This document shows, one piece after another, positions 1,395 through 54,360 of a DNA stretch of 64,000 nucleotides (positions within the stretch are counted from its first letter, which is position 1; each line of letters opens with the position of its first letter). This stretch comes from Nannobrachium achirus (lineage: Eukaryota > Chordata > Actinopteri > Myctophiformes > Myctophidae), in assembly GCA_963921795.1 (NCBI GenBank), contig OY997658.1, forward strand, positions 53,399,897-53,463,896, written 5' to 3'. The position numbers and the translations under genes were made by a program. Under the pieces are notes generated by a model, which saw nothing but the letters and a program-made list of their open reading frames with translations, did not search any database and had not been told where the DNA came from.

Positions 1395-1813
1395 CAGGAG
1401 TCTTCAACGTTTTCAGGCCAAGGACCCCTTAGTTGAGAGAGAGATGAAGCAGGGACCCCCACAACCTGTTCATTAGTGTATTTTGGGTTCATGTCAATTT
1501 GTGTTTTCAGATATTTAACCACTTGAACCGTCAATACTTAATAAACTTGACCTTTACTCTGTACTTAGTCTGCTCTTTTTCCCGTCAACACCAAAGCTCT
1601 TTGCCAAAAATAGCCGATCTACAAGCTCACAACGCCTCGCACTGCGAGGCGTTGTGAGCTTGTAGATCTGCTATTTTTGTCTAAAGTTCTCAGAATATGG
1701 ACGCTAGGGTTCAAGTGGTTAATATAAAAAAGGAGACAAAAAAAGTTTCTATCACTCAAAGATTTGGAGGACCCCTTGTAGTAACTCTGGGGACCCCCTG
1801 TTGAAGACCCCTG
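1395..1813. mobile_element. Non-autonomous hAT element, CAGGAGTCTTCAAC family
   Basis: TIRs CAGGAGTCTTCAAC and GTTGAAGACCCCTG, with a perfect 8-bp TSD CTTTAAGG at 1387-1394 and 1814-1821, diagnostic for the hAT superfamily. The target overlaps the terminal TTAA of the preceding MITE, so this insertion is the younger one. No transposase. The centre holds a copy of the recurrent palindromic core (1605-1679). A second copy of the family, also with its own perfect TSD, is at 14190-14723. Confidence 0.9.
1605..1679. repeat. Palindromic core, copy 1 (type copy)
   Basis: A 75-bp near-perfect hairpin. The left arm contains ATAGCCGATCTACAAGCTC then ACAACGCCTCGC; the right arm is its complement. The loop is 2-3 bases. 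It is the best-preserved copy together with 54294-54360 and lies in the middle of a hAT element. The core recurs about 16 times in the window (see findings). Confidence 0.95.
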
Positions 1814-1825
1814 CTTTAAGGATTC

Positions 1826-1856
1826 TCCCCCTCCCCCCCCCCCCCCCCCCCCCCCC
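1826..1856. repeat. Poly-C tract
   Basis: About 30 bases of C with one T interruption, immediately right of the hAT TSD. Its length is probably unreliable in assembly. Confidence 0.95.
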
Positions 1857-1857
1857 T

Positions 1858-2904
1858 GGTTCTTGCAAAACCTTTCACTGCACCTGCTTCCGGCTATGTT
1901 CACATGCACACTGCAGTCTCACACCTACAGTAATCATGTGACTCATGTAGATAATATATAGGGTCACAGTTGCTTACCGAGGTCCACACTATGCAGACCA
2001 CACAATGTCTGGGGACCCATTTGGTTTTGCCTCAGGGGGCACAACTTTTTTTGGTGTGTGGAAACAGGAACTTGGGTTGGCTCCTCCCCTTTATTAGTCC
2101 TATTCCTCCTTTTTCAGGCAGTGGTGCTTGAGAGATTAGTTGGGGAATACGAATAATATTTGTGCTGATGAGCGGTGGGTGTTAGATACTGTATGGGCCC
2201 AAAGTGTAAAATAAATTACCCACGTTTGACATTTCATTTTGGATCATTATGAAGCAGCCTTTACTTCGCTAAAAATGATGTCAGTGTCACTCGCATGTAA
2301 ACGTGCCTGGTGGTTGTGTGCACAGTACATCAACATTTACCAGTTACCACCCCATTGCCACCATCCATAATGCACTTGAATCGCACAGTGTGGCAAAAGA
2401 CACAACAGACGTCCATGTACTGGCTGCCATTGATGGTTCACGCTGAACCAGGGTGGCGGGTGGGTGGGTGGGGGGTGTTACTAAGTAGGGCCTTCGAGGC
2501 ACCAGATGTCAGCGATTAATCTTGATGAAGTTGGGACTCTACCTCTCTCTGGCTGTCTCCCCCCTATCTCCCCAAACTGCTGCTTAATGACCCTTTCCCC
2601 CTGTTTTATCAGGCCCGTTTCTTTTCCCAGGGCATTAGATCATGTTAAATATGGCGTCAGAGTATCTATGCAGATGAGTGGCGGGCGGGGGGTGGGGTGG
2701 AGGGGGATGGGCTACGGGAATACTGCTGGTGGTAGGCATGGCAACACCTGGCTCTCTCTCCCTGCCACTTGGAAGAGCTGGGTGACGCAACATGAATCCG
2801 AGTCACTGTATGGCAATGGTTCAAAGATATGTTGTTGAATAACATGGTGACGTGTGCTGAGCATATAGAGGGCTGCACTGTTCTCAGCCCTCCTTCTAAG
2901 ACGA
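1858..2904. other. no recognised feature
   Basis: Mixed-composition single-copy-looking sequence. There are two G-rich patches (about 2455-2480 and 2680-2710). Several overlapping short frames on both strands show no domain. Confidence 0.5.
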
Positions 2905-2985
2905 AAGTAGACAGAAATGGTCCAATCTTGAGCATAGTGAGGACCAATTATATGACGATAGGCTGAAAATCTGTGAAGTGGTGCT
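2905..2985. mobile_element. Right-end fragment of TTAA-target MITE
   Basis: Matches the right end of the full element at 36763-37190 (shared AGTGAGGACC, ATTATATGA, ATAGG, TGAAAA, AAGTGGTG) and ends at a TTAA (2986-2989). No left end was seen upstream. Confidence 0.6.
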
Positions 2986-2989
2986 TTAA

Positions 2990-4216: not shown

Positions 4217-4684
4217 CAGTGGTTCTCAACCTTTTCAGGCCACGACCTCCAAAATAATCATGAACTGCATATGAGCACTACTTGGAGTTGGAAGAGTGGA
4301 GGCATTACAATTTCTTTAACACAGTCCTATTGTGAAAATAGACTGTGAAAATAGACATGCTCACATGCTCACATGCTCACAACGCCTCGCGTTGCGAGAC
4401 GTTGTGAGCATGTAGATCGGCTATTTTCACAATTTCTGCCTCTGATATTTGACAATTTGACAATGTTTAATTTGTCATTTTAGAGGGATTAGAAAAGGCC
4501 TTAAAAGTTCTTAAATTGTCACTTTAGATATGTGCAGATACCCTCTATGTACTTAAACTTTGCGTTGGTTTGTTTACTGTTGAGTGAGAAAACAATGTTG
4601 CACATTAAGTTAATTATCTGGGGACCCCCCAAAATAATTTGGGGACCCCCCGGGGGGTCCCGACCCACAGGTTGAGAACCACTG
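4217..4684. mobile_element. Non-autonomous hAT element, CAGTGGTTCTCAACC family
   Basis: TIRs CAGTGGTTCTCAACC and GGTTGAGAACCACTG, the widespread Charlie-like terminus. The flanks (GTATAGAG, GTTTATAT) agree at 5 of 8 positions, so the TSD is decayed or the copy is old. It encodes nothing. It contains a palindromic core copy at 4345-4429. Confidence 0.8.
4345..4429. repeat. Palindromic core, copy 2
   Basis: Arms ACATGCTCACAACGCCTCGC and GCGAGACGTTGTGAGCATGT. Relative to the type copy, ACAAG became ACATG in the left arm and CTTGT became CATGT in the right arm, a paired change. The left arm also carries three tandem copies of ATGCTCAC. Confidence 0.9.
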
Positions 4685-5230: not shown

Positions 5231-5445
5231 GGGCTCTATTTTCGTCCATGCCTTCCTTACCCCACTAAAATTCTATGCCTTGTTTTACTATTTTGAAAAA
5301 CATTTTAAATTGTACAAATATCTGATCTACAAGCTCACAAGTGTCGATGTAGATCGGCTATTTGAAGTATTTTAAAATGTTTTTCAAAATAGTAAAAAAG
5401 GCAAAGAAGTTTAGGGTTAAGGGATGGACGAAAATATAGCTCTAT
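5231..5445. repeat. 215-bp palindrome centred on a core copy
   Basis: Left arm starts GGCTCTATTTTCGTCCATGC and right arm ends in its diverged complement (ATGGACGAAAATATAGCTC). Inner parts (TACTATTTTGAAAAACATTT and complement) also pair. Core copy 3 sits exactly at the centre (5315-5364). No TSD recognised. A one-armed relative is at 6855-7000. Confidence 0.8.
5315..5364. repeat. Palindromic core, copy 3
   Basis: Contains CTGATCTACAAGCTCACAA on the left and GATGTAGATCGGCTATTTG on the right. The CTTGTGAG part of the right arm is lost. Confidence 0.8.
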
Positions 5446-6854
5446 ATCTAATCCACTTCCACTGGAAATGAGCTGAGACAATCAGATAATGTAAAACATT
5501 ATATTGGTACTATGAGAAAAAGGTAATGCATAGTCCACGTTATGTTCCTTTAACCTTTATTAAACCTTGTTATGGCAATGAGGGAGAGCTCTGCATGATC
5601 TGATAACACTGCTGCAAAACAAGTTCAAAGTTACTGTACCACTCCTGCCAAGACAGATTTGCTAGATTCGTTCATGTCTTTCATGAGACTGAGGACTTAA
5701 ACCATTTCCTGGAAAACATCCCTGTAAATGTCATATCCCCATTGTCTTGCAGTGAAAATGTATTGGACTGGGCAGATGAAAAGAAAAGGCTATTGATATA
5801 TATAGAAAACTGAGATGCAGAGGCCTGTGAAATGAGACCTGCTGGGACCTGAAAGAGTTTTACTGTTGAGCAGTGAAAGCCGCAGATAATTGGCAGATTG
5901 ATCCTCAGATTGACCCTCGCAAGGGAAACCACACACAGTAACACAGAGTCTGTTTGTTTATTTCAAGTGCCAAGCACATTTGCATACATTCGACTTACCA
6001 ACTATTGCCTTGGTCAAGGGCACGTTATTCCCTAAATATCAAAATGTAAACGAAATAAACCATGTTGGTGTAAGTGCATAATGCACTGCAGACACATATT
6101 CAGTATCACTGGTTTATAGTGGTTTGTTAAGCACAGGTCATGAGAGATCACATTTGCAACCAGATCTATCAACTCAAGCTTTGTGATGGCATTTTGAGGG
6201 CATTTATTTTCAGTCCACAGAGGTTTCTGCACGATGCATACCTTAACCCTGATAGCACTCTTGGCCTGCTTAAACTGTCATTCATAATTCATGACAACAT
6301 TGCATTTTTTTTTTTACACTCAGCAAAACAGAGAATGTTAAACAGAGTCAAAAGGTGCACTCTGGAAACAGAAAGTGTGAACTTTATGGCAGTAAGCATT
6401 CACATTATCTGCTACCACATATTGTGGCGGAACTAATTAAAATGTAACAACTAAAAGATGAAAATGTAATAAATAAATAAACAGCTTGAGAAATTATATT
6501 ATTTATAGTTGGGTAAAATTCACGTTTGATTTTACACCATATTTATTCTTCGGTAATGGAGTTTTGCTCTCCCTTGATTGAAACAACACAGCTATGATTG
6601 AAATACACATTCGTCACATGACTTTACCATTATAGACCCACCAACTGAGTAAATAGGAACATTGTTTCACACATTCGGCATCAAATCATCATTCATCATT
6701 ACATTGCAAAGGCAGTGCAGTATTATGGCCACCGCTTTGATGTTAATAACACCCTCCAGAAATCAATTTTAATTTCTCCTCCAGCATGATAGCATGACAC
6801 GTTCGATCATGTTTAGGTTGCAGTATATGATTCCCAGAAATACAAATAGAATAA
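5446..6854. other. no recognised feature
   Basis: AT-rich sequence with short frames on both strands and no identifiable domain or repeat termini. Confidence 0.5.
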
Positions 6855-7000
6855 GGCTCTATTTTCGTCCATGCTTTACCCTTATCCCTAAACTTCTTTA
6901 CCTTTTTTTACTATTTTGATTTTTTTTTCTTTTTTTTTTTTACATTTCAAATAGCTGATCTACAAGCTCACAACATGCCAATGTCGATTGTCTATTTGAA
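6855..7000. repeat. One-armed relative of the 5.2-kb palindrome
   Basis: Starts with the same GGCTCTATTTTCGTCCATGC arm, then ACTATTTTGAT and a T-rich run. It then has core copy 4 (about 6945-7000, CTGATCTACAAGCTCACAAC ... GTCTATTTGAA). The second outer arm is absent: sequence past 7000 does not mirror the left side. Confidence 0.75.
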
Positions 7001-7890: not shown

Positions 7891-8250
7891 CAGTGGTAGA
7901 ATGTAGCTAAGTACGTGCACTCAAGTAGCCTACTGTACTTTTTGTGGTACTTTTACTCTACTGGAGCATTTTAACATTTTCAATTCTTTTATTTCTACTC
8001 CACTACATCTCAGAGGCAAATACTATAGTTGCTAGTTTCTTGTCATTATTATCACAAAACATGCATTAACCACGTCCCTGTATACATTTCGGACATTTTC
8101 AAATGGCCGATCTACAAGCTTGTAGACCTGCTCTTTTCAAAAGTTTGTTTTTATACATTTAAAAACTTGTGAAATGAGACAATCTGCATAATGCGTACGT
8201 TTTTTTTAAACTTTTACTCAAGTACATTTTGATTATCAAACTCAATTCAC
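7891..8250 (+). mobile_element. hAT-family fragment, CAGTGGT(G)GAA terminus
   Basis: Begins CAGTGGTAGAATGTAGC and continues with CTAAGTACGTGCACTCAAGT, TACTTTTACT and TTCTACTCCACTACAT, a repeat family common in teleosts. Core copy 5 lies inside (8096-8146). The right terminus is not seen next to it. Other copies are at 11245-11645 (opposite strand) and 59736-60866. Confidence 0.65.
8096..8146. repeat. Palindromic core, copy 5 (minimal)
   Basis: Reduced to CCGATCTACAAGCTTGTAGA between CATTTTCAAATGG and CTCTTTTCAAAAG. The loop-proximal stem is missing, leaving a loopless palindrome on AAGCTT. Confidence 0.8.
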
Positions 8251-8869
8251 CCTTTGTCAAGTCCCGCCCGTTGTCCCGCCCCTCTTCACACCCATTGGTT
8301 GCTGTGTCTTGGTGAGACACTCCATCCACTACCATTTTAATTCAGTTGCTTCGTATTGTTATTCTGTGTGTTCAATTCTTCAAACTTGGTTTCAGTAAAA
8401 TGGAGCTGCTCAGTGGCAGTATAGTGACTCAGCATGTTTTTAAATGTTTTTATTTCTCCAAAAATTATGTTTTAGCAAATTCAACATAAAAAAAGCAGAA
8501 CTAGGGCAGGACAAGGCAGATATAGCCTGCTGGTTGGTCAGTCAGGGACCAACCAAAAGGCTAAAAAAGGGTGAATTGTAAGTACAGAGTAAGTACAAGT
8601 GAAAGAGTATATACGTAAAACACGTGAGAACCTTGAACCTTTCCCACCACTGTGTGACACAGTATTATGTGATAGCGCCACCTCCGGTGCAGCGGCGGTG
8701 GGTCACCGCTGCAGTTGTTCAGCATTATTCAAAGAAATAAAGTGTTGCAGCCAGTGTCATCAGGACAGCCCGGCGGCTGCCAGGGCGTGCTCAGTGCTGC
8801 ACTGGGCCCTACAGACCACACACTGTAGTGCTTTCCAGTGGAGGGCAGTGAATTTGCGGCAGTGGCGGT
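8251..8869. other. no recognised feature
   Basis: Non-repetitive; short frames only. Confidence 0.4.
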
Positions 8870-8944
8870 GATGCAGCCAGGGACGTGCAGAGAATGTTAG
8901 CGGCGGGGCTGAAATTTCCAAAAGGGCATTTTGGTGAAAATATA

Positions 8945-9004
8945 GAAAATAGCAGACCTCCGAGCTCACAACGCATCGCAGCGCTTGGAGCTCGGCTATT
9001 TTTC
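8945..9004. repeat. Palindromic core, copy 6
   Basis: GAAAATAGCAGACCTCCGAGCTCACAA-type left arm (ACCTCCGAGCTC replaces ATCTACAAGCTC) with right arm GCTTGGAGCTCGGCTATTTT. The outer stem has altered together in both arms (CCGAGCTC and GAGCTCGG). Confidence 0.8.
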
Positions 9005-9530
9005 GGTACTTGATACCACAATGAACTAAGCATAATCAAGTCAATACTGGAGATGTGGCGTTCAGCATGACATTTCTACACAGAGAGGGCGATTCTTTCA
9101 ACATAAGATGCTGCATTCAAGTTCAGGAGAGTTTGGACAAGTCAATTCTCTTGAATGCTGCCATCAGTTATGGCATGGAAAGAGGGCATTTGCATTTCTT
9201 TCACCATAGTAAAAACTGCATTCATTGGTCTGGATAGGGGACTTTTTACAGACGGATAAAAGGGCAGGGGCTCAAGCCCTAGGGGTGTAACGTGTAACTA
9301 TATAGTAACTGTATCGAAATATTGTTTTTAACTTAAAAAATCGAAGTATATCGAAATGAAAACAGCTAAAATCGAACCGTATTGTTTTATTTTGTATCGT
9401 ATCGAATCGGCAGTGCAAAGAATCGATTGTATCGATACTTGCATTGTATTTAGCATTTTTAAGAAGAAAAATGTAAAAGGAGGGGTTTAATTGCGACCGT
9501 CAGGGAGCAGTTTACTATGAAAACCTCCAC

Positions 9531-9566
9531 CGGCCGTCCGTCCGTCCGTCCGTCCGTCCGTCCGTC
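9531..9566. repeat. CCGT microsatellite
   Basis: About eight CCGT units followed by three CACGTCA units, at the position where sister elements carry CTGT/CAGT runs. Confidence 0.95.
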
Positions 9567-9694
9567 ACACGTCACACGTCACACCTTTGCCCTGCTCATA
9601 TCTCCGCATCAGTATGACATCACACCACATGTGTACACAAACCTTTGTGTACGTTGCTGTGGCAACAGTCTGTTGTTGCTGGTTTGTTAGTGTA

Positions 9695-9825
9695 CGTTAG
9701 CAACCACCTTAGCAACCATGGTTTTACCCTAGCAACCAACTGTTTACCCTAGCAACCAACTGTTTACCATAGCAACCATGTTTTTTTACCCTAGCAACCA
9801 ACTGTTTACCATAGCAACCAGATAC
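9695..9825. repeat. AGCAACCA minisatellite
   Basis: Five to six imperfect ~24-bp units of the form TAGCAACCAACTGTTTACC inside Helentron-like element A. Confidence 0.85.
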
Positions 9826-9900
9826 GCAGAGCAGGGATCTCCATATATGGGCATAAACAGGTGACATCACACTGATGTCAGATACTCAGAGCAGGGATTT

Positions 9901-10380
9901 CTCCATAATATATGGGCATAAAAGGGATTCTGTTAGGGATCTCCATATATGGGCATAAAAGGGATTCTGTTAGGGATCTCCATATATGGGCATACAAGGG
10001 ATTCTGTTAGGGATCTCCATATATGGTCATAAAAGGGATTCTGTTAGGGATCTCCATATATGGGCATAAAAGGGATTCTGTTAGGGATCTCCATATATGG
10101 GCATAAAAGGGATTCTGTTAGGGATCTCCATATATGGGCATGAAAGGGATTCTGTTAGGGATCTCCATATATGGGCATAAAAGGGATTCTGTTAGGGATC
10201 TCCATATATGGGCATAAAAGGGATTCTGTTAGCTGTTAGTGATCTCCATATATGGGCATAAAAGGGATGCTGTTAGGGATCTCCATATATGGGCATAAAA
10301 GGGATTCTGTTAGGGATCTCCATATATGGGCATGAAAGGGATTCTGTTAGGGATCTCCATATATGGGCATAAAAGGGATG
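9901..10380. repeat. 37-bp tandem array with CArG-like sites
   Basis: Thirteen units of 37 bp. Each contains GGGATCTCCATATATGG, then GCATAAAAGG, then GATTCTGTTA. Twelve have a perfect CCATATATGG (starts 9943, 9980, 10017, 10054, 10091, 10128, 10165, 10202, 10246, 10283, 10320, 10357). One unit has a 7-bp insertion. Units are almost identical, so the array is young or homogenised. Confidence 0.95.
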
Positions 10381-11244
10381 GTATCCCAGATGATGCCCTG
10401 TTAGGAGATCCACACTAACAGAATCCATATATGGTCCTACCGACAGCTGCTATAAGCCAACCCTGGCGATAAGGTCTGAGTCGAAGAAATGCTTCTTTCC
10501 TGGCAAGAATTGCCCCTTTATACTGTAGGGCTCGTTTGTGTATTGTATGACATCACGCCACATCATCGGCTGAGGACTGTGTGATGTCATCATATCTCCA
10601 TATATGGAGACATAAGTTGCTCATGCCCAAATATGGGCTGGTGAGGTCAGACTTAGTGTGATGCGTAGGTTATCTCCATATATGGAGATTCAACTTCAAT
10701 GAGTAACCATGGCAAACTGTCAACTGCCCGTATGTCTTGATAATTGGTAAAACAAACTTTTGGCCTATTTGTGGAGATAAGCGACCAACGGTCGCTTATC
10801 TCCCGATTAGGGAGTCTTACTGGTTACTTTTCCTTTCCTTATAGCTACACTGGTCTATCGATAAATGTGTGTTATCTCTGGGTTCTTGTCAAGGTGCAGG
10901 TTTGTCAATATACAATGTCCATTTATTTGGCAGATAATCACCGTGTTGACTTATTTATATCCTTAATAATACATGTTTCCCTTAAAAACTTGCACTATCC
11001 ACACCTTTCACCCAGATTTAATTTCTTTGCTAAACAGTTACTATATCGATTTTAAATAATGAAATCGAATCGTATCGTATTGCCATGAATGAACCAATAT
11101 CGTCCATGTATCGTATCGTCAACCATGTATCGTGATATGTATCGAATCGATATTAAAATGTATCAAGCCCCCTTTGATGTCTATGTTGGCACGTGCCTGG
11201 ATGCAGCCCATCAGGATGCTTGATGGTGCAACACACTTTTGAGA

Positions 11245-11645
11245 TGTAGGGTGTGCTCTGCAGTGATGGTAAAAGGACAATTTTTTTTTTACTTAAATAA
11301 AAGTATTACTGCAATGCAGACAGTATACTCTGTTACAAGTAAAATAAATCAAACTTCACTTGATAACTTGCAAAAGTATTGGCATCAAAACATACTTAAA
11401 GTAGCTAAAAGTACCCGTTATGCAGAATTTCACATGCCGGTTTCAAATGTGAAAATAGACGATTTACAAGCTCAGAATGTGTCACAAATAGGGCTGAAGT
11501 GTTTAATGTAGGTTTTGTAATAACAATACAAATCTACAAAGTAAGTAACTAAAGTTTCCTAATAATTGTAGTGGAGTAAAAAAGTGCAATATTTGACTTG
11601 AATATTTGGAGACTGTACATTCACCAGTAGAATGGAAGGCAGGCT
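11245..11645 (-). mobile_element. hAT-family fragment, same family as 7891
   Basis: Antiparallel relative of 7891-8250 with AAGTATTACTGCAATGCAGA, GTAGCTAAAAGTACCC and AATTGTAGTGGAGTAAAAA, ending ATTCACCAGTAG. It carries a half core (copy 7, about 11451-11490, AATAGACGATTTACAAGCTC). Confidence 0.6.
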
Positions 11646-12675: not shown

Positions 12676-12892
12676 CAGGGGTGTCGCACCAAATTCTGGG
12701 CCCAGGGTACAAGGATTCACTGTGGGCCCCCCCATGAATGTTCTTCATAGGTGGAGGGGGTTTAACCCATTTAGACTGGGAACGCATTATTACACGTTAT
12801 TTTGTGCTTCAACTATTGAAAAATAGCAGATATACAGCACGGCACCGAGTGCCGCGCTGCAAGCTTGTAGATCTGCTGAGCTGTTTCACTGT
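12676..12892. mobile_element. hAT element (CAGGGGTGTCGCACC family), right-truncated
   Basis: Begins CAGGGGTGTCGCACCAAATT and runs collinear with the complete copy at 51890-52198 through core copy 8 (12818-12879). Homology then stops in the right arm of the hairpin (GATCTGCTGAGCTG), so the right third is missing. Confidence 0.8.
12818..12879. repeat. Palindromic core, copy 8
   Basis: AATAGCAGATATACAGCACGG with loop stem GGCACCGAGTGCC and right arm AAGCTTGTAGATCTGCT. The AGCTCAC part of the left arm is deleted. Confidence 0.8.
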
Positions 12893-14181: not shown

Positions 14182-14475
14182 CTCTAAAGCAGTGGTCTTC
14201 AAAGTTTTTCAGGCCAAGGACCCCTTGGCTGAGAGAGAAAGATGAAACAGGGACCCCCCCTACTTATTGTATAGGCTACAATTGTGTTGCAGATTAAAAC
14301 ATTTCATAGTTTTCATAGATAGCTTGACTTGCTTGACAACAATTCTCATCAGTGTTGGATTCATGTTAATGTGTATTTTAAGACATTTAACCACTTAAAC
14401 ACTCAATACTTAGTGAAAATGCCCTTTCACTCTGTGCTTAGTCTGCTCTTTTTCCCTCTACACCAAAGCTCTTTG

Positions 14476-14546
14476 ACAAAAATAGCCAATCTACAAGCTC
14501 ACAGCGCCTCGCAGCACACAGCAGTTGTGAGCCTGTAGATCGGTTA
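14476..14546. repeat. Palindromic core, copy 9
   Basis: AATAGCCAATCTACAAGCTC then ACAGCGCCTCGC on the left, GTTGTGAGCCTGTAGATCGG on the right. The arms have diverged in the loop-proximal stem. Confidence 0.85.
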
Positions 14547-14596
14547 AGTTTGGCTAATGTTCCTTTCAGCATAGGGATGTACAAGTGGTTATTGTA

Positions 14597-14597
14597 A

Positions 14598-14658
<61 letters not shown>
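14597..14658. repeat. A-run plus TA microsatellite
   Basis: About 19 A followed by about 20 TA units inside the hAT element. Confidence 0.95.
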
Positions 14659-14660
<2 letters not shown>

Positions 14661-15048
14661 TATCACACCGTAGTAACTCTGAGGACCCCCTAGGGGTCCC
14701 GAACCCCCTGTTGAAGACCCCTGCTCTAAAGTATGGAACTGTTCAGTCTTTTACATACCGTATACCACAGGTCATGTCCGTGACACCATCAGGATTGTGT
14801 TTCTGCTGTCCTGTTGTCTTTTCTGACATTTGTTAGAAAATAATCTGAGCCATTTCAGCACCATGGGCACCATTGGCTAAGAAGCTCCATTTAGCTCTGT
14901 GATGCTCTGAGGCAGCATATTACTCTGTCACCTGCACCATTACAATGGTACATGTTTTTTATGCCGTTGTAGGAGAATTAGCTGTCCATTAGAGGGTCTG
15001 TCTGTCTGTGTCTGTCTGTGTTTGTGTGTGTCTGTGTATCCAGAGTTA

Positions 15049-16922: not shown

Positions 16923-16974
16923 TGCAGACACTTTCATCATTCTACTGCAAATCAACTTGGTATCTGGTAGCAGC

Positions 16975-18579: not shown

Positions 18580-18710
18580 GACGGTGTTGCGCGCAGAGAA
18601 CGGCCGAAAATAGCAGACCTCCAAGCTCACAACAGTTGCATCCGCAATGCGGTTGTGAGCTTGTATGACAGCTGTTCTCGGTGCAGAATACCGTTGCGGG
18701 GTGAAGTATA
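18580..18710. repeat. Palindrome with core copy 10
   Basis: Core at 18605-18680 (GAAAATAGCAGACCTCCAAG then CTCACAACAGTTGC; right GGTTGTGAGCTTGTATGACA). It is flanked by inverted outer arms with GACGGTGTTGCGCGC and GAGAAC on the left. The same GACGGTGTCGCGC arm flanks core copy 12 at 21.75 kb, so these two share a larger repeat unit. Confidence 0.7.
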
Positions 18711-19293: not shown

Positions 19294-19671
19294 TTAGATG
19301 ATGTTGGCCGTTTGACTCATATGGATATGAAGAATCAACTCACGGTGAGAAAACGCTAATGTTACTGCCGCCGAATCAGTTAAACTTTCGCCAGAAACGG
19401 ACTGTATCAAATATTAGTGACTGACAGTGTTGGGCAAGTTACTGAAAAATAGTAACTAGGTACCGTTATTACTAGTTACTTCATTTCAAAAGTAACTCAG
19501 TTACTTTACTGATTACAAACACCAAAAAGTAATGCGTTACTGTGAAAAGTAACTTTTAGTTACTTTTTAGTTTTTAGTATAGTAGTGTTTAGTAATGACC
19601 TTATATCCTGGTTAAACTTTATAGCTTGTAACCCAAAAGAGAAATTATACATTTGCCCGTGACCCAAACTA

Positions 19672-19715
19672 GTGAAAACAGCAGATCTACAAGCTCACAA
19701 CGCATCGCTTTGCGC
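19672..19715. repeat. Palindromic core, copy 11, left half
   Basis: AGCAGATCTACAAGCTCAC then AACGCATCGCTTTGCGC. The right half (CTTGTGAGCTTGTAGATCAG, to 22455) lies 2.7 kb away because a hAT inserted at the loop. Confidence 0.9.
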
Positions 19716-19856
19716 CAGAGCCCTGCACGGGTCCAATTTTGACAACCCGCGCCCGCCCGTCCCGTCATTAATCAGATCCGTGGACCGCCCGCTACCCGTC
19801 ATTATTAAAAAATCAAAACCAGACCCGCCCCGCCCGTCAAAAAATAGACCCGTCGC

Positions 19857-21427
19857 CAGGGCCGGATCTAGCCTTTAGTAGTAGGTGGGGCAGCAAGAAA
19901 TGATAGGGGGGTCACCTCCAGCCCATGCCATGAGGCGTGGGCGAAAAAAAATGGGGGGATCAAACCCCCTAAAACACCCGAAATGCATAAAAAACAAAGC
20001 ATTTTGGCACACTTATACCTATAACACCATTACAAACAACAGGTCTTACACCTATCTCTCTCTGTCTCTATATATTCTAGTAGAGATGGACTGATTGCAA
20101 ATTTCTTGGCCGTATACCGATCCACCGGTTTTATGAAGGTCTGACCTGCCAAAACCGATTTTCCGATACCGATTTCTTTAGCTATGAACTAGAAAATAGG
20201 GTTGCTCCAATACCCTTTTTTCAGGCCAAGTAGGCCTACAAGACATACTTCAATTTGAGTACCAATAAGCTAGAAGAACACTAATGCCAAATCAATCACA
20301 AAAGTACAATATCCAAAATCACAGACAATATCCAGTCTAATATGATATGGATATAATATTGATGCCAGCTGATCATTCACTGTAAGGCCTAAAGAAATAC
20401 ATACTACTGTATATATTGTATAATTGCTGTGCCATTGCTTCTGTCTGTGTCACTGTTAGAGCTGCATGATTAAGACAAAACCTTTATTTTAAAATTATTG
20501 GTATACATATTGAGATCATTTATTTCAAATATTATTAATAATATTATTATTGAATAAATATTTTTTTAACAAGCAAAACGATTGTCTTAAAAGCTAAAAT
20601 AAATAAGGTTGCATTCATTGTCTTCAAGGTGAGAAATTTACCTTGTGTCACAGTAGTCTGACTCGAGTCTATTCCTTCCTTTCAAATATTTAAGGGCAAA
20701 ATATTACCTCTCATGACCCTGGCTGTTCCTGTTGTTTTGGGTTGTAAAACCTCGTAAGGGACTTAAAATGTTACATAATACATTTCTGTTGCTTAATGTA
20801 CTTTGTGAAACTATCGGAGGATACTATAACGACCTTTAACAGGCTTCACCTGGACATGCATTAATTAATCCAGCGTGTGGACAGACACACATGACACCAC
20901 GCAAAGTGAACTGACTGAAACGGGAGGTGGTTTTCCTTTGAAACTGGCTAAAATAAAGGGACATTTATAGGATGGCTTTTTCTGTCGCTTGCTACAGCTT
21001 TTGCAATACTGTTGCTTTCTGTTAAATGAAAGTGAAAGTAAACTCCTTCTGCATGGACCGTCTACTCTGGACTGGAGGCAGGAAAGCCTTGCAATGCTTT
21101 TTTTTGTTTGTTTTCCTTCTTCTTTGAGACTACATTGACACAGGATTATGGAATATATCCTTACATTGCAAAGGTAATCAGCATCATCTGTATTCTGTTG
21201 TAGGCTGCCACTAAGTAGACTGGCTGCTATTTGCTAATGTTTAAATTAGTCCAGAGCATCATGCTGTGCACCGGAATTTATGTCAGTGACCGTCCGGTCA
21301 CCGATGCGGCCGGTTTGATATCATACCGGCCGATTTTTTGATTTTTGCATGCCATCATGTTTGGTGGGGCAGACAGGGCATTTAGGGGGGCATTGCCCCC
21401 CCTTGCCTATGCCTAGATCCGGCCCCG
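19857..21427. mobile_element. Third-level nested hAT element
   Basis: Termini CAGGGCCGGATCTAG and CTAGATCCGGCCCCG (last bases mutated from CCCTG). Perfect TSD CCCGTCGC at 19849-19856 and 21428-21435. The interior (about 20083-21345) holds a diverged pair AGATGGACTGATTGCAAATT / GGCCGATTTTTTGATTTTTG that may be a fourth-level relic; I am not confident of its ends. Confidence 0.9.
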
Positions 21428-21746
21428 CCCGTCGCCCGCCCCGTTACCCGTGATTACATGCATTAAAGTAAATAGCCTACAGCCGTGCGTGCGTTCTTTC
21501 AATGGCATCGCACTCCATTTTCACTCCATAGTTGATCCCCCTGCAAGCCGTCGGAAAATGCTGTTATTAAGCCTATTATTAATAGGTCTATTATTATTTG
21601 GATAAAGTAGAACAACCTTTAAAACCAATCATACTAATTTAAAATTGTATCATGGTCTGACACTGTCGCGACAGCTTGTTGCTGCTGCTGCTTTCTGCCT
21701 CCGCTGCTTTGTGCAGTTGTATTTGTCATACGACGGTGTCGCGCAT

Positions 21747-21820
21747 TGAAAATATCAGAGCTACAAGCTCACAACATGTCGGAACTTGCAGCTTTGTGAG
21801 CTTGCATGTCTGCTATGCTC
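21747..21820. repeat. Palindromic core, copy 12
   Basis: ATCAGAGCTACAAGCTCACA on the left and TTTGTGAGCTTGCATGTCTG on the right. Outer arms pair GACGGTGTCGCGC with CGACACGCACCGTC. Confidence 0.85.
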
Positions 21821-22413
21821 GACACGCACCGTCATACGGCGAAGCACATATCCAGCTTTTCACAGCTGAAGGGAACGCCACTCGCTGTCTGTCTGTCTTG
21901 GTTCTCTCATGATAAACAGCCCGAGGTAATCTAAACCAAACCGGACCCATGATGTGACGATAATAAAGGAACTCCTAATAGTCGTGGAATCACGTGGATA
22001 TTATACAATCATGGACCTTTCAACTACATCGCGCGCTAGGCAAGCAGATCACTCGCGGCCACTTTATTCAGTTGTGTGTCGGTGTCCTCCTCACTGTGAG
22101 TGTGTGCGCTCCAGCCGGCTGCCGCCGCTGTGTGACTTGACGTTTAGGTGGAAACAGTGCTGTATGCATGCCGTGGTTCTGTTGTCATGCTGCTCACTGC
22201 ATGTGTGCGCTCTTGTGACGTTGTTTTAGGCAGAAACAGTTGTCTGATTTTCACAGTAAAATGTCATCCGCCCGTCACCCGCCCGTGTTTAGTCGCGCAC
22301 CGCCCGTCCCCGTACCCGCAAATTTATAGTTGAATATATTCCGCCCGTACCCGCCCGTCAAACACGGGTACCCGTCGGGTACCCACGGGTACCCCACCCG
22401 TTGCAGGGCTCTG

Positions 22414-22455
22414 CTTTGCGCTGCCTTGTGAGCTTGTAGATCAGCTATTTTCACT
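22414..22455. repeat. Palindromic core, copy 11, right half
   Basis: Completes the hairpin begun at 19672. Confidence 0.9.
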
Positions 22456-22830
22456 GTTTATTAAATATTTGTGTTCTAATTTATGGAATGTCTTCGATTT
22501 TATTGATAATGTATTCATAGATTTTATTTTTAATTTGCAAATAATGTAGGCTACAAAAAAACACTAACAATTTTCCATTTATGAAATAATGTGCAATGCC
22601 TTACAAGCAAAACACTTGAGGGAAAATTAATTACCTTACGACCACAGGAAGTTTATAAGCAATGCCTTACAAGCAAAAAACTTGAGGGAAAATGAATTAC
22701 CTTACGACCACAGGAAGTTTAGACTATAAGCTTTCTTTCTCTAACAACAATATCATGGTTTGATGAGCCTTAATGAAATAGACCCGACACAGATTTTACC
22801 GCGAGTTGGGACCATGGAGTTATATATAGC

Positions 22831-23428
22831 CAGTAGCGCTTTGGAGGCCGGACGCGACCGGACGCTGTGTGATCAATAAATTCCCACTCGGACGCACGGA
22901 CGGCACTGAATGGTGCACGAGCGTGTAAACGCGTGCATACCCCCCGCGAGAGCCACGACAACCCCCCACCCTGCAAATCCGCGATAACTACAAGCTATAC
23001 TTTAATCAGTGGCTACTACTTTGCATAACAGGTTTCTAGTGGTGAATGTGTGAGCGTCCTCAAGCCACCCCCTATTCATATGGATATATAGCCTACTTTA
23101 ACACCTAGGTTTCCAGCTGTGACTGCATGTGCATGTGTCGATGTGTGTGTCCTCATACATGGCTCCAGTTTGAGATTCGTTCAAGGCAAACTTTGTTTCT
23201 CTAGCCTACTGCAGCGCTGTATTTTCTAAATGAATTAAAAGAAAGTAGAACATAAAATCTTAAGTAACAATGCAAATGTAATTAAGACTAGAAAACTATT
23301 GTTTTCCCACCATTAGATCTGCTGACATCCTTTCTATCTAAATAGCCTCTAGAGGCGTGTGCACATGCGTGCACGTGACGTCAATAAATGACCGTCCGCC
23401 CTGAAAAGAAAATTCCAAAGCACCACTG
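22831..23428. mobile_element. Second hAT insertion in the outer element
   Basis: Termini CAGTAGCGCTTTGGA and TCCAAAGCACCACTG; perfect TSD TATATAGC at 22823-22830 and 23429-23436. Subterminal CCGGACGC / GACCGTCCGCC blocks. No core palindrome, no coding. Confidence 0.88.
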
Positions 23429-24008
23429 TATATAGCCTAATAGCCTAACCATGCATGGATTTACAAGACGTTATCAATCATCTCATCAATAACGAACGCA
23501 CAGCTGTCCACCACTCGCAGCGGAGTCGGGAGAAGTCAACTACTGTAAGTGATCGCATTCTATCATATTGTACCTAGTGCGGGCTATCTGTAGTCACGTT
23601 TGTAGTCTGTATGTCTGCACTAGTCTGTTGGTAAAGCACAAACATGCCCAGAGCGCACCACAGCGCGTTTCAGCGGTAACTGAGTTACTGAATTTAAAAA
23701 AGAACGCGTTAGAGTACTCGTTACTGAAAAAAAGAACGGTGTTACAGTAACTAATTACTTTGTAACGCGTTAGTCCCAACACTGGTGACTGACTATCGTA
23801 AACGATACGGAGCCACCTCGCTGACAATAATCGCAGAGACACAATGTTATTCTCCATAGAGAAATGACTTCCGGGAACCAGGGGATGAACGAGTGACGTC
23901 AGGACTTTGCTTCTCTATTGTTCCGCTGTTGTGCACATAGGAAGCTTGATACGAGCCACATGCCAGATGGATACGTAGTTTTAGGTCCAAGAACAGAAAG
24001 AGAGAGAA

Positions 24009-24734: not shown

Positions 24735-24805
24735 ACAATAGCAGATCTACAAGCTCGAACTACGGCACGAAGCAATTTGCTTTGAGCTTGTCAATCTGTT
24801 ATTTT
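24735..24805. repeat. Palindromic core, copy 13
   Basis: AATAGCAGATCTACAAGCTC on the left, GAGCTTGTCAATCTGTTATT on the right. The loop-proximal stem is unrelated to other copies. No hAT termini seen around it. Confidence 0.85.
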
Positions 24806-43420: not shown

Positions 43421-43436
43421 TGTACAGTACAGTACT

Positions 43437-43485
43437 GTGTGTGTGTGTGTGTGCGTGTGCGTGCGCGCGTGCGTGCGTGTGTGTG
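43437..43485. repeat. GT/GC microsatellite
   Basis: Compound GT, GCGT array. Confidence 0.95.
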
Positions 43486-43616
43486 TCAAGACCAGCATGG
43501 ACTTCTTGCAGAACGCCACCATTTTGTTCCTTGTATAGGCCTAGATGTGCCATTTCAAAACTTCACACGTCCCGCCATTGACGAGACAGTAGATTTCCAG
43601 GGGATTTGCAGAACAT

Positions 43617-43650
43617 AGAGCTTGTAGATCAGCTAGTTTTGCTATTTTTA
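43617..43650. repeat. Palindromic core, copy 14 (right half)
   Basis: GAGCTTGTAGATCAGCTAG and TTTTGCTATTTTT only. The left arm is absent. Confidence 0.7.
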
Positions 43651-43953: not shown

Positions 43954-44481
43954 CCAGTAAGGTTCTAAGGGCAAAATGCGCCATGTCTTGCCCATCTGGC
44001 CAAAGGGATTTGGTTCCCCTGGCTCCATATATGGCAATAAAAGGGATTTGGTTCCCCTGGCATCACAGGGATCTCCATATGGCAATAAAAGGGATTTGGT
44101 TCCCCTGACATCACCGTGATTAAATATTGGCATTCACAGATGTGGGCTTAATATTGATGACATCAGGGATCTCCATATATGGGCATAAAAGGGATTTGGT
44201 TCCCCTGGCATCACAGGGATCTCCATATCTCCATATATGGGCATAAAAGGGATTTGTTCCCCTAGCATCACAGGGATCTCCATATCTCCTATATGACAAT
44301 AAAGGGGATTTGGTTCCCCTGACATCACAGTGATATCAAAGTGTGATGTCAGAGCGTGAGAGTCAATCAACAAAAAAGACAAGCGTTACCCATACAGACA
44401 GACAGACAGACAGATACGGTCAGGATGTGACGGTTCTGTGACGGTTCGCATTAATTGCGACCTACGGTCGCAATTAATGCG
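43954..44481 (-). mobile_element. Helentron-like element E
   Basis: Minus-strand 3' end GCCCTTAGAACCTTACTGG followed by T. The 5' end is the perfect palindrome CGCATTAATTGCGACC..GGTCGCAATTAATGCG (44447-44481). The interior has four to five imperfect units containing GGGATTTGGTTCCCCTGGCA and CTCCATATATGG (three perfect CArG-like sites). Confidence 0.7.
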
Positions 44482-47254: not shown

Positions 47255-48315
47255 CAGGTATGTGCACACATAGACATCAAAGGGGGCTAGAGCCCCCTGC
47301 CCTTGGCTATCTACCCGACCAGGGCTTCAGACAGTAGCGAGTGGTTAAATTGTTATTCCGCTTATTTAACGAAAGTCAATTTATTTCACATCTGCCGCAA
47401 ATGCTGTTAGAATCCCATCCGAGCAGTAATATTACCAGTGCACTGCCATTGTTGTTTTTAAAATGCTGAACATTGAACTCCCATTGAGATCTCGTGTCTC
47501 ACGGGCGGGGTGGTCAGCACAGCTGTTGAATGCAACGCGCATCTGGAAGTATAAGTATCTCTTGAAAAAAAAAGAAAATAAAAAACACCTGGACCATCAT
47601 TTGGGGAACCAAATAAGTACTTTTAGACGTAATATTGCCTTCTTGGACGAAACTCTCCTTTAATAACAGAAACTGCTAATTTAACTGTTATCAGTAATTA
47701 TTGACTACTGGATTGTTAGGGCAGGCTGGGGGTTATTGTGGCTCTACATGTATGAATATTATTTCTGGAGTTATTGTTTCATTATAGTTGTGACCGTCCG
47801 GTCGCAGCCAGTTACTATCAAAATCTCCACGGCTGTCTGTCTGTCAGTCTGTCCATCACGTCATACTTTTCCCCTACTCATATCTCCACCACCATTGCCC
47901 CGATCCATGCCAAACTTTGCACACAAACTCCTTGGCTGCCAAACCACAACCTCCACCCCTCACCTTCTTACATGGCCCTCTTCTAGCGCCACCATGAGGC
48001 CGATTCTTGCAAAACACATGTTTGGACACTGCTCCTACAGATTTTGCCCTAAAATCACGCAAAGCGCTACACAGTATCTCTAAAGTCATGTCATCAACAT
48101 GGATCTGTCCCATTTCCCATATCCCCTCCTGATTGCCTATCATTGCCTTCTAAAGTTTGTGTATGCGACCTGACGGTTGCTTATCTCCCGGTTAGGGAGT
48201 CTTACGGGTCCTAGATTCCAATAGTCTTAATTTAAAATGAGATATCTCTGGGTTATCTCCGGGTGCCGGCTAAAGATGCCCTTTTTAATACCAGCCCCTG
48301 CCCTGCACGTCCCTG
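47255..48315 (-). mobile_element. hAT element, second full copy of the 8878 family
   Basis: Plus-strand ends CAGGTATGTGC and GCACGTCCCTG; perfect TSD TCGAAGGA at 47247-47254 and 48316-48323. The first 40 bp (ACATAGACATCAAAGGGGGC) match the right end of 8878-11199 in reverse. It contains Helentron-like element C. No core palindrome is visible in this copy. Confidence 0.9.
47788..48208 (+). mobile_element. Helentron-like element C (421 bp)
   Basis: 5' TTGTGACCGTCCGGTCGCA; 3' TGCGACCTGACGGTTGCTTA, CTCCCGGTTAGGGAG, TCTTACGGG and T outside (CTGG mutated to CGGG). A compact copy without the CCATATATGG arrays. Its body (CCAAACTTTGCACACAAACT, TTCTAGCGCCACCATGAGGC) appears to be the shared backbone of elements B and D. 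Confidence 0.8.
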
Positions 48316-51599: not shown

Positions 51600-51889
51600 T
51601 TAATTATACTGATTCTTGGTAATTGCTGCAACTGGCAGCTCACCAATGATTGTTCCGAGGGACAAATCAGATGCATTGTCCTGTTATCTTATCCAGACAC
51701 AGGAAAGATTGAAATATAGGTTTGACCCAGAAATGAATCGGACAGTTAATGTCTTTATTGTAAGAACTATAGAGTGGCCCAAATGAATATTACAATTTAG
51801 ACATTTTGTCAATGCTTTTTGCCTTTCAGTTAGTGAGCATGTTTGTGCTATTAGAATTCAGTTCTTTGTTCAAGTACACATCAACAGAG

Positions 51890-52198
51890 CAGGGGTGTCG
51901 CACCAAATTCTGGGCCCTGGGTAAAAGGATTCACTGCGGGGCCCCCATGAATGTTCTTCATATGGGAGGGGGTTTAACCCATTTAGACTGGGAACGCATA
52001 CGCATTATGTTGTGCTTTAACTATTGAAAAATAGCAGATATACAAGCTCACAGCGCGGCACCAAGTGCCGTGCTGCGAGCTGTGAGCTTGTATATGTAAT
52101 ATTTTTCAATAGCTAAAGTATAAAATAATTAAGGCCCACTCCACCTTGGGCCCTGGTAACTCAGTCCCCCCCCCCCCCCCCCCCTTGTGAAGCCCCTG
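51890..52198. mobile_element. hAT element, CAGGGGTGTCGCACC family
   Basis: Termini CAGGGGTGTCGCACC and TTGTGAAGCCCCTG. TCAACAG lies on both sides (51881-51887 and 52199-52205), a 7-of-8 TSD with a one-base offset. It contains core copy 15 and a poly-C run (52166-52184). A right-truncated relative is at 12676. Confidence 0.85.
52021..52112. repeat. Palindromic core, copy 15 (extended)
   Basis: CTATTGAAAAATAGCAGATA with TACAAGCTCACAGCGCGGCA, then right arm GAGCTGTGAGCTTGTATATG and TATTTTTCAATAG. GATCTAC/GTAGATC became GATATAC/GTATATG in both arms, and the loop stem (GCGGCAC/GTGCCGTGC) is replaced as a pair. Confidence 0.92.
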
Positions 52199-52206
52199 TC
52201 AACAGG

Positions 52207-54293
52207 GCACGTGACCAGTGGCCTGCTGCAAGGATCAGACAAGCATTTTGCATTACTGCATGGGTCTCCTCAAACACAATCAGACTAGACACAGGTCTGA
52301 AAGCCACAGAGTTCTCAATCACAACTTAATCTCTCCCTCCATGCTAAGAGAAACAGTCTGTCTGGGGGCCGTAAGCAATCAATGGCCTCCTTCAACGCTG
52401 GTTTACCCTTTTACTGTAACCTGCAGGCAATGCCCTCCTAATGGTTAGTGGTTTCTCAGGGGTCTGGGCTTAATCCTGAGTTATCACACCTTTGGATCTG
52501 TGCTAAAGGCAACAATTGATTCATTATCACTGGACATCCGTTTCCTCAAGCTGAGACGGATACTTGTCAGAGTTGTTGGTAGTATAATTGGCTAACACTC
52601 AAGGTCACAAACGATGGAGAAGACGAGGGGGGAAGAGATAAAAGGGTGGGCCGTTTAATTTGCTGCCGATCAACTGGCAGCAGAAATATTTTGTTTCGGA
52701 AGCAATAAATAACACTTCCAGAGCTAATCCCTGTTAATTGATCGAAAGTAATTAGCTGACTTTGCGTATTGAGTCATCCACTCTTTTGAGAGAGGGATTC
52801 CAAAGCTCTCTTTATGTTGGCCCACTCCCCTCTCCCCTGCCCCATAACACTGACCACATCTCCCTGTTATAGTCAGCGCCAGCCCAGGAGTCTCAGCATT
52901 GGTACTCTTCCAAATTATCCAATTCATTCAGAGGACAATCAATATCCTTTCTACTTCTATTTTTTTTTTAAATCCTACCACACAGTTAAGTGACTGTCTG
53001 AAACGGTGTAATATTATCAGAAGAATAAAATGTCACTTCTTGGATCCCATTTCACTTTCTCAATAGACGGGAAGATCCATTTTCTAGTTCAAGGGAATTC
53101 AAATAAGGGGAAGGAAACGAGAGGCTTATCTGATGAGAAGCTGGGGCCTTTGAACAAAAATGCTGACATGATCATTAAATTGCAGAGCACAGAGACAGTA
53201 ATATAGCACAGTACTGATACTTGTGTGCACCTATCTCCAGCATAATAGATTATAGGGCCCTTTGACTCAACATGCTCAGCTTGCAATTTCTGTTATTTAA
53301 AAGTTTATGATCACAATGTTCTCCAATGGTTTTGATAAAATATTTATAGTGTGAATACCATCAGAGCCTCTCTCAGCCTCTTATACCCTTGAATCCATTT
53401 TGCAGCATATACTTTCACCATTATAAGATGGATGCAGTCTAGTCTCTGCACCTTTCCATCAGTAGTTGACAGGGGGATAGTTCTGCAGCATTAAGATGAA
53501 ACAAACCCAGAAGAACAAGTTCTTATACAAATGGCCAATATGTTTTGCGGTTTCCCCCCCTGCTGGAACCAAAAAGATGATGTGCCTCGCCTCATTCAAG
53601 TGAATTGATTTAGCTGAACTTTACACTTGATGTTATTATTACCTTAATACACAATGTCATAAATACTTTATGGTAACAGTCGCTAGTTTAAAGTCTTGTT
53701 TCAATCACAATGATATACATTGTTTTTGTTAAATTATGGTCCCATGTATTTTAAAATTGATGATAAAACAGTGTATGCTGTAGGAGGGGCGTGACTAGCT
53801 TGATTGACACGCTCCCAACCAATAACATGTATTGTCCCAAGCAATAGAATCCTGGTACCATTTCTATTTTCAGGACAGGATATAGAAAGATGGTGGCATG
53901 CACACATTTGCTAAACAGGCTTCATTTACCCTCTGTAGAAACCAATGGGTGACGTCACCGTTCCCTTAGTCCATTCTCTACCGTCTATGGTAGTAGATCA
54001 CGCCATCTGGGACTTGTAACTTGAATAGAAATAGTGCATAATTGTTGGCTAGTTTTCAGCTAGTTATACACCGTCTTACAAATTAAGGCAAAACTGTAGA
54101 AACTGCTCTTCACACCTCCCCACACCTCCCCATGTTTCCTCTGAAGTCATGTGTGGTGTCCACTTTGATTGAATTAATCTGGCCATTGACATTTGTCTAT
54201 TTCAATCCAAGTCACCCTTTGTTAAACCTGGGTACATTTGAGTTTCATTTGAAGCCCTTGGGTAGCATTATGTATTGTTTGATGTTTGTTTAT
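52207..54293. other. no recognised feature
   Basis: Repeat-poor, ordinary composition. No exon with a believable reading frame and splice sites was found by eye. Confidence 0.4.
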
Positions 54294-54360
54294 TAATAGA
54301 TCTACAAGCACACAACGCCTCGCGGTGCGAGGCGTTGTGTGCTTGTAGATCTGCTGTTTT
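54294..54360. repeat. Palindromic core, copy 16
   Basis: AGATCTACAAGCACACAACG with CCTCGC, 3-base loop, perfect complementary right arm. GCTCAC became GCACAC on the left and GTGAGC became GTGTGC on the right: a paired change. No hAT ends seen around it. Confidence 0.95.

Follow-up and report, generated by a model that had tools for sequence, protein, structure and literature searches.

A palindromic core common to dissimilar DNA-transposon-like elements of Nannobrachium achirus, and its possible role in the joining of transposon halves

How MITEs come to be, with short matched ends around a foreign interior and with new families appearing in sudden bursts, has long been an open question. The 64-kb stretch of Nannobrachium achirus DNA presented here (the window), which is the evidence base for all that follows on the core and its hosts, raises it in a particular form: is a short palindromic core that recurs in it a mobile unit of its own, a site under selection or a module of transposons? 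The core had been reported about 16 times in an earlier sequence-only reading, and this recurrence is real. Every one of the 16 loci bears at least one motif arm near the position first given, with 19672/22414 counted once, as a split copy. The 16-mer GATCTACAAGCTCACA has 25 matches at up to three mismatches in the window, against 0.73 expected (shuffle mean) and a maximum of four among 100 shuffles. A 27-column weight matrix also led to 28 arms scoring at least 12.7 at the 16 loci, while the top score in eight Markov controls was 12.1. The mismatch count is the unbiased test of the two, because 25 of the 28 arms had served to train the matrix. A three-mismatch match to the 16-mer at 37413 lies below the matrix cut-off of 6.

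The best copies of the motif are palindromes about 71 bp long (Table 1). DNA folding of 10 of the 16 loci showed that in nine of them none of 200 shuffles folds as well as the real sequence, the exception being core 21747 (20/200). On its outer side the arm word AAAATAGCNGATCTACAAGCTCACAAC breaks off at an abrupt edge: with the 28 arms in register, column -9 has 1.19 bits of information and column -10 has 0.22 (1.17 and 0.31 bits without four related loci). This common edge, seen with the weight matrix and in the information drop, supports the earlier description of a discrete palindromic unit. The GC tip with a 3-base loop, ascribed to the core in general, is present in 1605, 54294 and, with one mismatch, 4345, but not in 52021 and 12818 (different GC tip), and the others are eroded. 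Cores 43617 and 11451 are half copies, as first described, and the split copy proved to be one core interrupted in its tip by a 2,698-bp hAT-type element with a perfect target duplication.

Table 1. Palindromic cores and elements identified in the window (F1 to F9, host families; TSD, target-site duplication).
Feature	Positions	Strand	Description
Core 1605	1607..1677	.	Near-perfect 71-bp palindrome, arms 34/35 matched, 3-base loop
Core 4345	4337..4427	.	Right arm intact; CATGCTCA repeats break left arm
Core 5315	5315..5364	.	Short stem
Core 6945	6948..6998	.	Left flank F7 (6855-6919); right flank diverges a few bases past core
Core 8096	8100..8137	.	Palindrome shortened
Core 8945	8946..9002	.	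Truncated in right arm; both arms have CTCC for CTAC
Core 11451	11452..11478	+	Left arm only
Core 12818	12820..12882	.	GATATAC in left arm (shared with 52021), consensus GATCTAC in right arm; F3 on left side, other sequence on right
Core 14476	14479..14550	.	Palindrome decayed
Core 18605	18607..18678	.	No assigned host
Core 19672, left part	19675..19715	+	Split in tip
Core 19672, right part	22414..22451	-	Other side of tip split
Core 21747	21749..21819	.	Inside F5
Core 24735	24735..24805	.	Left flank homologous to right flank of 54294 (F8)
Core 43617	43613..43639	-	One arm only; no assigned host
Core 52021	52028..52105	.	Palindrome with variant tip, extends into flanks
Core 54294	54290..54360	.	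Perfect 26-bp stem; both arms have CACACA for CTCACA; F8 on right side, no match found for left side
Host F1 of 1605	1395..1813	+	hAT-type MITE, ends CAGGAGTCTTCAAC/CAGGGGTCTTCAAC, 8-bp TSD CTTTAAGG
Host F1 of 14476	14190..14723	+	TSD CTCTAAAG
Host F2 of 4345	4217..4684	+	Ends CAGTGGTTCTCAACC, 15/15 both sides; flanking octamers only 5/8 alike
Host F3 of 52021	51890..52198	+	Ends CAGGGGTGTCGCACC/CAGGGGCTTCACAAG; TSD-like CAACAGAG/TCAACAGG, one-base offset
Host F4 of 19672	19425..23784	+	hAT-type CAGTGTTGGG, TSD GTGACTGA
Host F5 of 21747	19716..22413	+	hAT-type CAGAGCCCTGCA, TSD CTTTGCGC; sits in tip of core 19672
Host F6 of 8945	8878..11199	+	hAT-type element, TSD GATGCAGC
Core-less insertion in F6	9280-11162		TSD TCAAGCCC
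Host F7 of 5315	5232..5441	.	Palindromic over nearly whole length, GGCTCTATTTTCGTCC ends
Host F9 of 8096	7891..8652	+	Ends CAGTGGTAG.../CAGTGGTGG...; no matching TSD

The contexts of the core had been called unrelated. Its flanks do mostly differ, but at 14 of the 16 loci the core sits inside a DNA-transposon-like element, often close to the centre, and these elements represent at least eight dissimilar families (counting matching ends or shared halves). CAG-type terminal inverted repeats are typical of hAT elements. A CAG start is found on both sides of F1 to F6 and of the F9 copy at 7891-8652, on one side only of the F9 copy at 11261-11627 and on neither side of F7. The 8-bp TSD is a feature of the hAT superfamily, and Mar is an example of CAG-type hAT ends, according to the accessible part of PMC3517528. 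Five core-bearing elements of four families combine hAT-type inverted ends with a perfect (8/8) duplication (1395-1813, 14190-14723, 8878-11199, 19425-23784 and 19716-22413). Hosts F2 and F9 lack the 8-bp TSD of hAT elements, and F7 at 5232-5441 shows none, though it is palindromic nearly throughout. The host of 11451 belongs to the same family as the F9 element at 7891-8652, in opposite orientation. TSD-scan rows in microsatellites and AT runs were left out as hosts, as were the rows at 5385-6918, 33097-35138, 42575-44227, 42669-44079 and 42835-44227, and an E-like palindrome near 43617 was dropped because it lies beside the half core. That the core is a universal hAT module is ruled out, since five TSD-supported elements of the window do not contain it (22831-23428, 47255-48315, 19857-21427, 9280-11162 with poorly matched ends and 59819-59951 with a 7/8 TSD). 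Enrichment in TSD-proven hATs alone is not significant (5/16 cores against 13.6% coverage, p 0.055).

The core tends towards the middle of its hosts. Its mean distance from the element centre is 0.116 of the length in nine hosts (p 0.0099), with the hosts of 8945 and 19672 carrying it well off centre. Flanking palindromes are host-specific and have the core on their axis (p 5e-5, 14 copies; p 0.002 without the two strongest copies, 5315 and 52021). Around cores 1605 and 14476, both in TSD-proven hAT hosts, the palindrome is only partial. The flanks, earlier described as mostly non-homologous, are not all unrelated, as five pairs of loci have one or both in common. Both halves are common to 1605/14476 and 8096/11451. 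The remaining three of the five pairs have one half only in common, with the change at or beside the core: the left halves of 12818 and 52021, the left halves of 5315 and 6945, and the left half of 24735 with the right half of 54294. The last match scores 37.6 unmasked against a shuffle maximum of 23.5, and 25.2 with simple repeats masked, which is between the 99% and 99.9% control points. Core 12818 bears the F3 variant on its left arm and the consensus on its right (GATATAC/GATCTAC), therefore the change of partner is placed inside the core, with a breakpoint resting on few bases, and this suggests that core 12818 joins halves of two families. Its right half was also compared with F4, a weak candidate (3/300 shuffles score as well), and a kinship of 18605 and 21747 through common GACGGTG flanks was not significant. 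At 54294 a perfect arm seems to be joined to an unrelated flank. The one-sided losses could also be ordinary truncations at a fragile palindrome.

Arms of the same copy resemble each other more than arms of different copies do (identity 0.794 vs 0.755, nine copies, p 0.007), and non-consensus bases common to both arms number 7 against 3.1 expected (11 copies, p 0.012), although the signal is modest (p 0.033 in a stricter set). Core 1605 has a single difference between its arms in 35 positions, although its host and that of 14476 differ by 17 to 19% in the two long flank blocks. Homogenisation of inverted-repeat arms by template switching has been published (PMC8604942; PMC8794818).

The reading that we favour, tentatively and with a little less than even confidence, is that the core is a conserved central MITE module, a passenger of its hosts, which would serve as a predicted hairpin turn-around and joining point for transposon halves. 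In related hosts the core occupies the same position, so that it has spread passively at least in part. It probably marks a shared site at which halves of transposons could be joined or swapped. The process might start with the copying of a gap or stalled fork at a MITE, where the core hairpin is extruded. The hairpin would let the new strand fold back on itself, so that the two arms stay matched, and such fold-back could produce a palindromic element like that at 5232-5441. Alternatively, the new strand may switch to another copy of the core and join halves of two families (cf. 12818). In a bolder form, which we regard as rather improbable, the short palindrome would be a universal adapter for DNA transposons: hairpin fold-back would turn any transposon end joined to it into a two-ended mobile MITE, or that end would be coupled to one from a different family, and new MITE families would arise from exchangeable halves that surround a single conserved core. 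The common outer edge at column -9 suggests the insertion of a discrete unit, and joining alone leaves this edge unexplained.

Insertion is central to the serious rival, possible yet doubtful in our view, that the core is an independent and very small MITE, made up of a pair of 34-bp inverted repeats that all but touch each other, and inserts by preference at the centres of palindromic transposons. Its termini would be sharp, as is the common edge amid dissimilar flanks (with a faint extension past -9 in some families); the best copies form a unit of about 71 bp, copies lie on the symmetry axis of host palindromes, and an isolated direct repeat, ATTTTAAA, surrounds core 5315. However, the mobility proposed earlier for this tiny unit is not borne out by direct repeats, since none of constant length accompanies the core in 14 copies (at equal offsets, an exact repeat occurs in at most 2/14 for any length or offset), and related hosts share its location. 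Moreover, with 14/16 cores inside transposon-like elements, none has been placed outside (18605 and 43617 are without assigned host), and no core-free pre-insertion site was seen in the 64-kb window. Selection on a cis-acting site is unlikely. Here the inverted 27-bp word would be recognised by the zinc finger of a transposase or by a protein of the host, or the host would read a hairpin in the transcript, and diverse hAT-type elements would retain the core for that reason. It would agree with an arm word conserved over 27 columns while tip and outer flanks vary, and with hAT-type being the type of most hosts with known ends, but it has to face the five core-less TSD-supported elements, the several half or broken copies and the lack of any Rfam 15 match at gathering score in the whole window. 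As ARAGORN found no tRNA either, the core was rejected as an RNA gene. Common descent of all hosts from one old palindromic MITE, its centre still recognisable and its ends diverged past detection, is very improbable, for although a faint TGAAAATAGC-like edge past column -9 is common to several families, the ends of F1 and F2 are similar and, among 465 pairs of flanks that belong to different host families, 9 score above the 99% control point (about 5 expected), terminal sequences differ by family and arms of different copies are still about 76% alike while most flank pairs of unlike families remain within control levels.

The favoured reading, a module carried by its hosts, has relatives in known systems. 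By analogy, the core reads as a putative palindromic DNA-transposon counterpart of the highly conserved domains (HCDs) of SINEs, which include CORE, Deu, V and others, with the V domain also carried inside the MITE MER6 (PMC6887750, accessible part). Like them it is a short conserved module common to families of different origin and with unrelated ends, one HCD likewise riding in a MITE. Unlike them (retroposons, with a V domain of about 120 bp) it is a near-perfect palindrome in DNA-transposon-like elements, and hosts with defined ends have DNA-transposon ends. Module exchange is one of the published hypotheses for HCDs (PMC6887750), and the core would make it testable for DNA transposons. 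Being common to dissimilar families, it would record in the DNA itself that they have exchanged parts. It would also offer a single sequence with which to search for many MITE families at the same time, and a shared weak point at which rearrangements could arise.

A possible parallel is hATpin, to judge from its title a group of MITE-like hAT elements with highly stable secondary structures, and so likewise hAT-related and hairpin-forming; hATpin is, again by title, one plant family, whereas here one palindrome is common to dissimilar families. Galileo and Foldback-like elements have long, changeable inverted repeats and a palindromic target motif, and their defective copies have been ascribed to abortive gap repair, slippage, template switching and ectopic recombination; Galileo, however, belongs to the P superfamily of Drosophila, and the accessible part of the source describes no short core common between families (PMC4168063). 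The palindromic hAT-derived MITEs of Atlantic cod likewise come from a fish and contain internal inverted repeats, and some of their copies, at inversion breakpoints, are chimeric. They differ in belonging to a single family, with two subfamilies and long tandem TIRs, and no palindrome common to unrelated families is described in the accessible part of that source (PMC12368964).

The 16-mer was not found in the literature searched, and a palindrome common to unrelated DNA-transposon families appears in no title or abstract opening among the matches listed, a scope mostly outside the subscription literature. A viral contig collection gave no match to the exact 19-mer, arm-pair or arm patterns. 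In a genome contig collection (257 Gb) the arm pair had no match, and the exact 19-mer had one, in a bacterial MAG, with about two estimated by chance. As regards coding capacity, the window holds five open reading frames of at least 130 aa.

The recurrent palindrome (the core, two inverted arms and a tip, each locus being named by its approximate start) was found at every one of the 16 loci listed by the sequence-only reading. The 16-mer GATCTACAAGCTCACA presents 25 matches with up to 3 mismatches in the window, against an expected 0.73 and a maximum of 4 in 100 shuffles. With 25 arms as its training set, a weight matrix detected 28 arms in the window at a score of at least 12.7, the top score among eight Markov controls being 12.1; 33 window matches exceeded 6, five of which, below 10, were discarded as control-like, each control giving 1 to 7 above 6. 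The DNA resembles that of a vertebrate, probably a teleost, with 42% GC, a CpG observed/expected ratio of 0.57 and numerous microsatellites. Cores are concentrated in 1-25000 (13/16, p 0.0007 against an even spread, the boundary being picked post hoc).

Ungapped alignment gave a 27-nt word common to the arms, AAAATAGCNGATCTACAAGCTCACAAC, and gapped alignment a faint TGAAAATAGC-like extension of the arm in some families. The outer edge of the core is sharp, yet not absolutely clean: between positions -9 and -10 information drops from 1.19 to 0.22 bits (28 arms in register), or from 1.17 to 0.31 bits (22 arms) without four related loci. On the inner side it fades toward the tip (27 arms). The best of the copies forms a 71-bp palindrome at 1607-1677, with a mismatch at 1 of 35 positions and a 3-base loop, and core 54294 has a perfect 26-bp stem. 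DNA folding of ten loci beat all 200 shuffles in nine; for core 21747, 20/200 shuffles fold as well.

Hosts, the transposon-like elements holding a core, were detected by a scan for inverted ends and 8-bp direct repeats, with many microsatellite rows removed, followed by a check of the ends. Five core-bearing elements have 8/8 target-site duplications (TSDs) and represent four families judged by their ends. The core at 19672/22414, previously described as split, is indeed so, because one of these elements was inserted in its tip. Further hosts were assigned via common flanks (12818 with 52021, 6945 with 5315, 11451 with 8096). GGTGGAAACCTC was found near the outer end on the right side of both 24735 and 54294, an end-to-end similarity that alone is not significant (14/300 shuffles). 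From the TSDs, ends and common flanks, 14 of the 16 loci lie in transposon-like elements, 24735 and 54294 being the weakest cases and 18605 and 43617 having no assigned host. Since the ends of the family of 1395-1813 and 14190-14723 are similar to those of 4217-4684, we put the number of dissimilar host families at eight or more. Within TSD-proven hATs alone (13.6% of the window) core enrichment was not significant (5/16, p 0.055), and five TSD-supported elements of the window are core-free. Nesting of hAT-type elements is three deep, with a perfect 8-bp duplication at each level, and the palindromic MITE at 59819-59951 has a relative at about 43674-43750.

Core-bearing hosts and TSD-supported core-free elements of the window
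Class	Position	Evidence
Core-bearing, 8/8 duplication	1395-1813	inverted ends and TSD
Core-bearing, 8/8 duplication	14190-14723	inverted ends and TSD
Core-bearing, 8/8 duplication	8878-11199	inverted ends and TSD
Core-bearing, 8/8 duplication	19425-23784	inverted ends and TSD
Core-bearing, 8/8 duplication	19716-22413	duplication CTTTGCGC; in core tip of 19425-23784
Host	4217-4684	perfect CAGTGGTTCTCAACC ends; flanking octamers match 5/8 only
Host	51890-52198	CAGGGG ends; duplication with a one-base shift
Host	7891-8652	CAGTGGT ends; without duplication
Host, palindromic almost end to end	5232-5441	
Core-free	22831-23428	hAT-type, perfect 8-bp duplication; in 19425-23784
Core-free	47255-48315	TSD
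Core-free	19857-21427	hAT-type, perfect 8-bp duplication; in 19716-22413
Core-free	9280-11162	8/8 duplication, ends poorly matched
Core-free	59819-59951	133-bp MITE, nearly perfect palindrome; hAT-like duplication GCTGCAGC/GCAGCAGC (7/8)

Flanks next to the core show more inverted resemblance within a locus than between loci (5.71 vs 1.65 for permuted partners, p 5e-5, 14 copies), also without 5315 and 52021 (mean score 3.0 vs 1.28, p 0.002), and therefore the core tends to be centred on the axis about which its host is symmetrical. This scoring of the 14 copies gave no symmetry at 12818 and 54294. The core also lies near the host middle, at a mean distance from the centre of 0.116 of the length (p 0.0099) in the nine hosts with both ends set, nested insertions being subtracted and two hosts (1605, 14476) representing one family; 8945 (0.22) and 19672 (0.27) are off-centre. 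Loci 6945, 8096, 12818, 18605, 24735, 43617 and 54294 were excluded, with an end missing or an insertion unresolved.

The two arms of one copy have an identity of 0.794, and arms of different copies 0.755 (9 copies, p 0.007). Non-consensus bases common to both arms number 7 vs 3.1 (p 0.012, 11 copies); leaving out 8096 and the free column gives 6 vs 2.8 (p 0.033). Such bases occur, for instance, in CACACA at 54294, ATAC at 52021 and CTCC at 8945. Core 1605 is nearly perfect, its host having diverged by 17 to 19% from that of 14476 (two long flank blocks), and core 14476 has arm mismatches at 6 of 27 positions. Core 54294 is perfect until two bases outside GATCTAC, and no match was found for the adjoining flank. 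Template switching at inverted repeats is described as leaving arm-matching patterns of this sort (PMC8604942, PMC8794818); selection on structure, as another source of matched arms, would look similar.

Five pairs of loci are related. Both halves are common to 1605/14476 and, in opposite orientation, to 8096/11451 (scores 40.3 and 27.0; flank-pair control points 21.8 at 99% and 30.7 at 99.9%). The left half alone is common to 12818/52021, the left half with a few bases beyond the core to 5315/6945, and one half alone to 24735/54294 (anchored score 21, control maximum 9.4; half match 37.6, shuffle maximum 23.5, and 25.2 once simple repeats were masked). In three of the five pairs, therefore, a switch of partner or a cut falls at the core or next to it. 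At 12818 a small number of bases seems to place the change within the core: the left arm has GATATAC, the variant of the 51890-52198 family, and consensus GATCTAC stands in the right one. The right flank of 12818 scored 29.5 and 26.0 against the two flanks of 19425-23784, above the 99% control point; we do not claim the right half for that family, as 3/300 shuffles score as well. Among flank pairs from unlike host families, nine of 465 lie beyond the 99% point, about five being expected.

Our favoured reading, offered tentatively and drawn from a single 64-kb window, is that MITEs carry the core as a conserved module at their centre, that hairpin-templated copying keeps it palindromic and that it acts as a joining point between halves; upkeep and exchange would proceed by copying, folding back and switching. 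The main rival, which we consider somewhat less likely, is a tiny MITE that targets the centres of palindromes. The sharp outer edge speaks for it, as it favours the past insertion of a unit, and the module's origin in each family is left unexplained by the favoured model. The core shows no duplication of its own: at any one combination of equal offset (-4 to +8) and length (2 to 9), exact direct repeats flank at most 2 of 14 copies; a freer search with unequal offsets gave single AT-rich 8-mers at 5315 (ATTTTAAA) and 8096 (TTTTCAAA) and 5-mer direct repeats at 18605 and 54294.

Titles and abstract openings among the matches listed, with partial journal coverage, describe no palindrome common to unrelated DNA-transposon families. 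hATpin (judged by title), Galileo and the cod hAT MITEs appear to have part of the core and host anatomy in common. The nearest idea is the SINE highly conserved domain, a module that recurs in SINEs with differing origins, as the core recurs in dissimilar host families; module exchange is a published hypothesis for these domains, one of which, V, is carried within the MITE MER6 (PMC6887750).

Other repeats were also recorded in the window. A large foldback at 32561-35669 has inverted arms, at most 258 nt long and 93% complementary, that lie about 2 kb apart, with direct repeats GAAATTTC at one pair of ends. The minus strand of 1-66 (GGGGCACGGTGGCGCAG...GGGTTCAATTCCCGCC) resembles, by eye, a tRNA-derived SINE head, ARAGORN predicting no tRNA. 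Tandem and inverted arrays of CCATATATGG-type units, partly within a transposon, are located at 9871-10432, 28504-29217 and 42486-44337 and include a 37-bp repeat in 12 registered windows, while 16965-17392 is a minisatellite with a 32-bp, GGACCGGCAG-type unit.
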